From contig CAIQOK010000158.1 of NCBI GenBank assembly GCA_903873415.1, forward strand, positions 1 to 52,459: a DNA stretch of 52,459 nt, written 5' to 3'. Within the stretch, counting starts at the first letter, position 1. Each line of letters opens with the position of its first letter. A model generated the notes under the pieces. That model did not search any database. It was given only the letters and a program-made list of their open reading frames with translations, and was not told the DNA's origin. Shown piece by piece: positions 39,505-39,591 of the stretch. The position numbers were made by a program, and so were the translations under genes. The stretch comes from an uncultured Verrucomicrobiota bacterium (lineage in GTDB: Bacteria; Verrucomicrobiota; Verrucomicrobiia; Limisphaerales; CAIQOK01).

Positions 39505-39591
39505 AAAAATCAAAAATCCCCGAACTTGCATTCGGGGCAAAGCCTGCGGTCTTTGCTCGCAGAAATTAGAAACACTCCCCGTGCCTGTCAA
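39505..39591 (-). promoter_or_regulatory. purA promoter and leader with terminator-like hairpin
   Basis: On the minus strand TTGACA (39591-39586), a 17-bp spacer and TAATTT (39568-39563) form a near-ideal sigma-70 promoter. The predicted start is near 39556. The leader then folds a first hairpin GCAAAG/CTTTGC (39556-39537), directly followed by CCCCGAA-TGCAAG-TTCGGGG (39537-39518) and ATTTTTGATTTTT (39517-39505), a textbook intrinsic terminator. purA starts 35 bp further on. Transcription would need read-through to reach purA, so this is either an attenuator or a short RNA of about 50 nt. The parts are seen; the regulation is inferred. Confidence 0.6.

Follow-up and report, generated by a model that had tools for sequence, protein, structure and literature searches.

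A conserved leader ahead of purA in an order of Verrucomicrobiota: a candidate transcription attenuator that pairs the predicted 5' end of its RNA

Introduction

Little is known, to our knowledge, about how purine synthesis is controlled in Verrucomicrobiota. The locus considered here lies in a stretch of 52,459 nucleotides (the window) from an uncultured bacterium of the order Limisphaerales, in which a promoter-like sequence runs straight into small hairpins ahead of purA. Such an arrangement raises the question of whether the gene is controlled by early termination of its own transcript or lies by chance beside an independent small RNA, both of which had been put forward by a sequence-only reading of this DNA.

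Results

The leader in the window

The element is carried by the minus strand, as is purA, and its parts and neighbours are the following:

39586..39591, minus strand: -35 hexamer TTGACA, read from the sequence; TTGAC is present in 119 of 123 elements
39563..39568, minus strand: -10 hexamer TAATTT (TANNNT across the order), from the sequence and its spacing to the -35 hexamer
39556, minus strand: predicted transcription start, the G of GCAAAG; a G has the same spacing in 124 of 136 elements
39551..39556, minus strand: 5' strand of hairpin 1, GCAAAG, predicted RNA nucleotides 1-6, from sequence, fold and alignments
39537..39542, minus strand: 3' strand of hairpin 1, CTTTGC, from sequence, fold and covariation; its last C is the first C of the terminator stem
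39518..39537, minus strand: predicted intrinsic terminator stem-loop CCCCGAA-TGCAAG-TTCGGGG, with a conserved stem and covarying upper pairs
39505..39517, minus strand: T-rich tail ATTTTTGATTTTT (order consensus NTTTTTATTG), from sequence and alignments
39484..39504, minus strand: third hairpin CGGGCGGC-ACAAT-GCCGTCCG, between the terminator and the purA ATG, from the fold
38202..39470, minus strand: purA, adenylosuccinate synthetase, 422 aa (NCBIfam purA equivalog above cut-off; Pfam PF00709)
39680..40033, plus strand: divergent neighbour, ribosome hibernation-promoting factor (HPF/YfiA family), from profile matches

The two hexamers are separated by 17 nt, GCAAAG follows the -10 hexamer after six nt, and the predicted RNA starts GCAAAGACCGCAGGCUUUGCCCCGAAUGCAAGUUCGGGGAUUUUUGAUUUUU. 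Hairpin 1 closes a loop of 8 nt (ACCGCAGG) and the terminator a loop of TGCAAG, and the purA ATG, at 39470, stands 34 nt from the tail and 47 nt from the terminator stem. The sequence-only reading had described a promoter and two abutting hairpins before purA, the second with a 7-bp stem and a T-rich tail. This second hairpin is as described (CCCCGAA/TTCGGGG at 39537-39518, tail at 39517-39505) and the general arrangement is borne out by its conservation across the order, but the hairpins do not simply abut, since C39537 is common to both and required by each. The third hairpin apparently lies outside the conserved element, and the stretch that follows the tail differs in sequence and length among relatives. 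This third hairpin is a strong one and may have a translational role or be species-specific.

Judged from the single sequence, this is a weak feature. The leader promoter went unflagged in a local promoter scan, TAATTT having three of the six consensus bases; the 7-kb region holds 8 terminator-like sites, against 7.4 +/- 2.9 in shuffled sequences; and the 90-nt leader folds with a z of -2.3 into hairpin 1 and the terminator, side by side, followed by the third hairpin. It is conservation that argues for a real element, with matches in 139 of the 196 genomes of the order, TTGAC in 119 of 123 elements and 17 or 18 nt between the -35 and -10 hexamers in 115 of them. Because the first and sixth T of the -10 hexamer were selection criteria of the script, and A at position 2 was favoured, its letters are partly chosen and mainly the spacing to the -35 hexamer is informative.

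Distribution in the order and beyond

A covariance model (R1) built from 28 purA upstream regions of relatives matched 139 of the 196 genomes of the order at E <= 0.01, with a single match in 134, and left 57 without a match; purA itself was detected in 180 of the 196. A model of the other pairing type (R2, described below) matched 132 of the 196 at E <= 0.001, seven of which R1 had not matched. Outside the order the matches are weak only: in a phylum sample of 193 genomes R1 matched 22, all at 29.4 bits or less, and R2 matched two at about 26 bits, the window's own genome being, among the matches listed, the only one from the order. Since R1 scores of up to 29.4 bits occur in that sample, R1 E-values are too optimistic near the threshold, and matches of the order below about 30 bits therefore rest on their position beside purA. 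The genome of the window has one strong copy of the element; two weaker matches (25 and 23 bits) were rejected as further copies, since background scores in genomes outside the order reach 29.4 bits. As a side observation, the contig of locus L003 is titled Akkermansia muciniphila, a title that looks wrong: its purA is 85% identical to that of the window, and its upstream stretch is the same as that of L083, from a genome of the order.

Linkage to purA

The loci searched numbered 149, namely 142 with R1 genome matches and seven around purA in genomes without a match; one R1 match (G076:C215, locus L169) was left out of this set. They contain 146 R1 matches, 136 of which lie on the purA strand at most 400 nt from its start. 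The remaining ten comprise two short matches on the reverse strand of purA leaders that were in the count already, one (L220, 43.4 bits) with the contig end 79 nt downstream, and seven of at most 29.7 bits in loci that lack purA. Beside the 136 purA-linked elements an HPF/YfiA-family neighbour is found once, in the window alone. For the counts that follow, a set of 123 was obtained from these 136 by setting aside 12 in which a fixed pattern gave no start (six of these, from family f25, can be assigned by eye to type H, as defined below) and one in which the script found no terminator.

The distance from the terminator stem to the ATG varies from 13 to 130 nt, with a median of 31, and is at most 35 nt in 75 of 123. 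A second promoter of this kind, from -35 to start, needs about 35 nt, so there is no room for one in these 75, and in those genomes purA must be reached through the terminator. The gap of the window is longer (47 nt), and the promoter scan found nothing in it, yet the same scan misses the leader promoter. As would be expected of an attenuator, the terminator lies between promoter and gene with no other promoter recognised between them; being promoter-proximal and conserved ahead of purA, it agrees with the attenuation layout that had been suggested from the sequence. In one family (f27; L141, L142 and L170) GGTCAGC-like repeats were also observed between the terminator and the purA ATG.

Pairing of the RNA 5' end

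The first six nucleotides of the predicted RNA are GTAAAT in 69 and GCAAAG in 30 of 124 elements (99 together). When a helix of at least five pairs is called, wobbles allowed, the 5' G(C/T)AAA strand pairs with bases just before the terminator in 35 of 123 elements (type H, that of the window) and with bases within the terminator loop in 77 (type L); one element can form both pairings and ten neither. Altogether 113 of 123 have a 5'-end helix of this length, whereas 300 rounds of shuffling the partner segments gave 15.3 such elements on average and never more than 24. With Watson-Crick pairs alone the helix is retained in 106 of 123, a number that drops to 1 when C and T are exchanged at +2. 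In the 112 elements of types H and L, the pair between +2 and its partner is T-A in 74 and C-G in 38, with no wobbles. An extension of the type L helix upstream of +1 was considered and rejected, the -1 base being paired in 31 of 75 against 29.6 expected.

Covariation differs between the types. In type H, 96.7% of the cells of the alignment are paired and 21 cells carry double changes, against 4.6 in shuffles (alignment A5, 39 rows, omits L200 and includes five f25 rows added manually); the terminator stem is conserved and its upper pairs covary. The terminator stem of type L shows variation that is partly compensated, whereas the 5' helix is almost invariant, so that the covariation of this helix is thin, amounting to one double change in a row (L165) added by hand to alignment A4 for that base change; A4 has 62 rows, L268 and any type L rows that were short, odd or near-duplicates having been dropped. 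Covariation of the stems in relatives was the check that had been proposed for the sequence-only reading, and it turned out in favour, both stems of the window's type being conserved and covarying.

The loops differ as well. That of type H measures 7-9 nt in 31 of 35 and is conserved solely in its initial A or AC, hence no ligand site is visible in it. In type L the spacing between the halves is longer and variable, and the linker has the consensus ACCGAGC, with A at position 1 in 71 of 77 and G at position 4 in 65 of 76, although it is absent in several rows. Pairing of this linker with the post-terminator region or the untranscribed discriminator scored better than shuffles, with z values of -5.4 and -3.2, to be read against -2.8 for an upstream control and against the relatedness of the sequences. 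For the type L 5' end and the terminator loop z is -25.8, but type L was itself picked by that pairing, and we therefore rely on the shuffle test over all 123 rows instead.

The partner site has moved repeatedly. Family f23 spans both partners (L152 and L155 are type L, L140 is type H and both are possible in L161), and a FastTree purA tree, with 108 typed rows among 132 proteins, requires at least 8 changes, an approximate number since the typing of L130, L244, L253 and L256 is uncertain. A separate observation concerns the tails, which in alignments A1 and A4 mostly read NTTTTT(A/G)NTG(C/T), from which the window deviates. The elemental pause motif has a G at -10 and a pyrimidine-G at the pause, and the G that follows the T-run of the tail sits about where such a motif would have one.

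Competition between the 5'-end helix and the terminator

Folds of the window show hairpin 1 together with the terminator, overlapping it by one base, so hairpin 1 is not an antiterminator there by exclusion beyond that base; in some relatives the overlap is of two bases. Three other type H leaders gave, as outcomes, coexistence to 52 nt, two pairs given up, and loss of hairpin 1 at 48 nt. Starting the fold at +3 instead of +1 restores the lowest pair of the terminator stem (7 to 8 pairs), both in the window and in L114. In stepwise folds of four type L leaders, the 5'-end helix is present at 32 nt (-6 to -7 kcal/mol), preceding the terminator, which replaces it at 44 nt (-14 to -20 kcal/mol). 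The two overlap in the loop and might also coexist as a pseudoknot.

Sister families outside the order

Neither R1 nor R2 reports any of the related forms seen outside the order, which come from purA leaders within the same class. In family f114, purA was found in four of five genomes, and all four leaders have GTAATTTC six nt past a -10-like box, which is ordinary in three and CAAGGT in L301. The partner of this 5' sequence is GAAATTAC or GGAATTAC in each of them, and once the folded RNA is longer, a terminator with its T-run takes the place of the pairing. As modelled, the f114 leader is a full, textbook antiterminator/terminator pair, mutually exclusive in folds. In f115, six of seven leaders have GGGCAA together with a complementary TTGC that directly precedes the terminator or overlaps it, L279 being without them, and in f67 both leaders pair their 5' GGCAA with a TTGCC located past the T-run. 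Inspection by eye found no comparable purA leader in several families, for instance f64, f65, f68, f117 and f119. Across the class the 5' strand appears to pair with at least three different partner sites, and the shared architecture and gene, rather than sequence, suggest a common origin of the sister forms and the element of the order. It was also observed in f115 that a purine-rich linker, GAGAGA, after the 5' GCAA (L277, L278, L281 and L285) can pair with the T-rich tail past the terminator, a pairing that would close the whole leader into a single structure.

Discussion

A candidate attenuator of purA

The function of the purA leader is proposed here on comparative grounds. Its position, conservation and covariation, its linkage to purA and the mutual exclusion seen in f114 folds point to an element that is probably a cis-acting transcription attenuator of purA. 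RNA polymerase would start at G39556, make a leader of about 40 nt and meet the intrinsic terminator, and purA would be made only by those polymerases that read through it. The 5' nucleotides of the RNA, G(C/T)AAA, would serve as a dedicated pairing strand with a role that depends on the lineage: part of a full antiterminator in f114, a partner of the terminator loop across most of the order and, in the lineage of the window, one strand of hairpin 1, which would take the bottom base of the terminator only. We infer that a 5'-end helix formed during transcription reduces termination and that the choice of structure is tipped by some signal of purine status; termination, its regulation, its direction and its signal all belong to the predicted part of this scheme. 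For the window, a 5' helix that favours read-through is carried over by analogy with f114; hairpin 1 could there loosen the lower end of the terminator stem, serve as a stabiliser or be no more than a relic.

As an alternative, an independent regulatory RNA of about 50 nt, placed next to purA by chance and merely stabilised by its 5' hairpin and terminator, finds some agreement in a conserved promoter, 5'-end pairing and terminator typical of stable small RNAs, and in the one strong copy of the window's genome. It is nevertheless disfavoured by the linkage of 136 of 146 matches to purA, the upstream gene of the window recurring in none of the other loci, and by the short stem-ATG gaps that leave no space for a downstream purA promoter in 75 of 123; type H, moreover, has no conserved unpaired stretch past A or AC, and we consider this half of the sequence-only proposal quite unlikely. 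Even less credit can be given to a DNA operator, in which the GCAAAG/CTTTGC inverted repeat, which does span the start region past the -10 hexamer, would be a repressor site and the RNA hairpins incidental. Its halves are 7-9 nt apart in 31 of 35 type H elements and at longer, variable distances in type L, the partner shifts between two places and its letters covary; this very improbable reading was rejected on the variable spacing and the covariation.

If the element is an attenuator, ligand sensing and start-nucleotide sensing are the two leading ideas for its signal. A riboswitch, in which the type L fold binds a small molecule (an adenine nucleotide, IMP, adenylosuccinate or PRPP) and the terminator is thereby stabilised or blocked, would account for the conserved A and G of the linker and for a 5' end that pairs with the terminator loop across it, and an aptamer embedded in a terminator has a precedent (PMC6478431). 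The type H leaders, however, have no such loop, which would leave the lineage of the window without a ligand site. Ligand pockets are usually more uniform than the type L linker, which is moreover missing in several rows, and a riboswitch appears improbable to us. Attenuation coupled to initiation would instead have starts at G+1 produce the competing helix and read-through, and starts at A from +3, or slippage on AAA, produce none, with the GTP/ATP balance setting purA. Consistent with it, the type L helix ends before -1, f114 and f115 again show G(C/T)AA starts despite a differing partner strand, folds from +3 restore the bottom pair of the terminator in the window and L114, and start-site slippage is described as feeding an attenuator at pyrG (PMC3574147, PMC4448216). 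This idea is inferential, though, the leader has no G-run as in pyrG, and the type H terminator forms with either start, the gain being one pair, and we regard it as unlikely. Joining both ideas, the attenuator may tentatively be seen as a nucleotide-sensing one whose sensor is the first nucleotides of the transcript, where the choice of start nucleotide, or a ligand held by the 5' end and the terminator loop, would decide termination within about 40 nt; this is possible, although we lean against it. If true, few purine-controlled leaders known to us would be as compact, and this one would be unrelated to the catalogued purine riboswitches.

Whatever its signal, an order-wide candidate control element of purA is short enough for in vitro transcription, and its natural variants range from a full antiterminator to a hairpin barely touching the terminator; this combination makes the role of 5'-end pairing in early termination directly testable.

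Comparison with known systems

Searches with Rfam release 15 at the gathering cut-off gave no matches in the window and none in 14 related loci, the best score below the cut-off being 17.3 bits against a required 49.5; known RNA families were thereby ruled out as far as the Rfam covariance models describe them, in line with the earlier remark that no known purine riboswitch was visible. A literature search of titles and abstracts, across a limited set of journals, found no comparable purA leader.

The closest parallels lie in the following systems. In the pyrG gene of Bacillus subtilis, start-site slippage is CTP-sensitive and the RNA 5' end feeds an antiterminator (PMC3574147, PMC4448216), the attenuator using extra 5' G residues (PMC3574147). 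The purA leader resembles it in serving a nucleotide-synthesis gene with a short leader, an intrinsic terminator and a 5' end that would take part in an antiterminator, and differs in its gene, its phylum and its G(C/T)AAA start without a G-run (GCAAAG in the window). In the HMP-PP (thiS motif) riboswitch, the switch is embedded in the terminator hairpin and the ligand has been demonstrated (PMC6478431). A switch within the terminator hairpin and a possible pseudoknot would be shared, whereas the gene is purA here, a ligand has been shown only there, and the pairing strand is here the RNA 5' end. ANTAR antitermination employs hexanucleotide loops with important bases at positions 1 (A) and 4 (G) (PMC3369931). 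Tandem small hairpins in a terminator-bearing leader recall that system, but the loop of hairpin 1 is variable and mostly of 7-9 nt, and the ANTAR loop pattern is absent from both hairpins of the window (8 nt in hairpin 1, TGCAAG in the terminator).

Classical attenuators have antiterminator and terminator structures that are mutually exclusive. Such exclusion is matched in the f114 folds, and the overlap in the window is one base. Judged from its sequences, the purA leader would represent an RNA family that is unmatched to the known ones, of a familiar general kind, and unusual in the use it appears to make of its 5' end.
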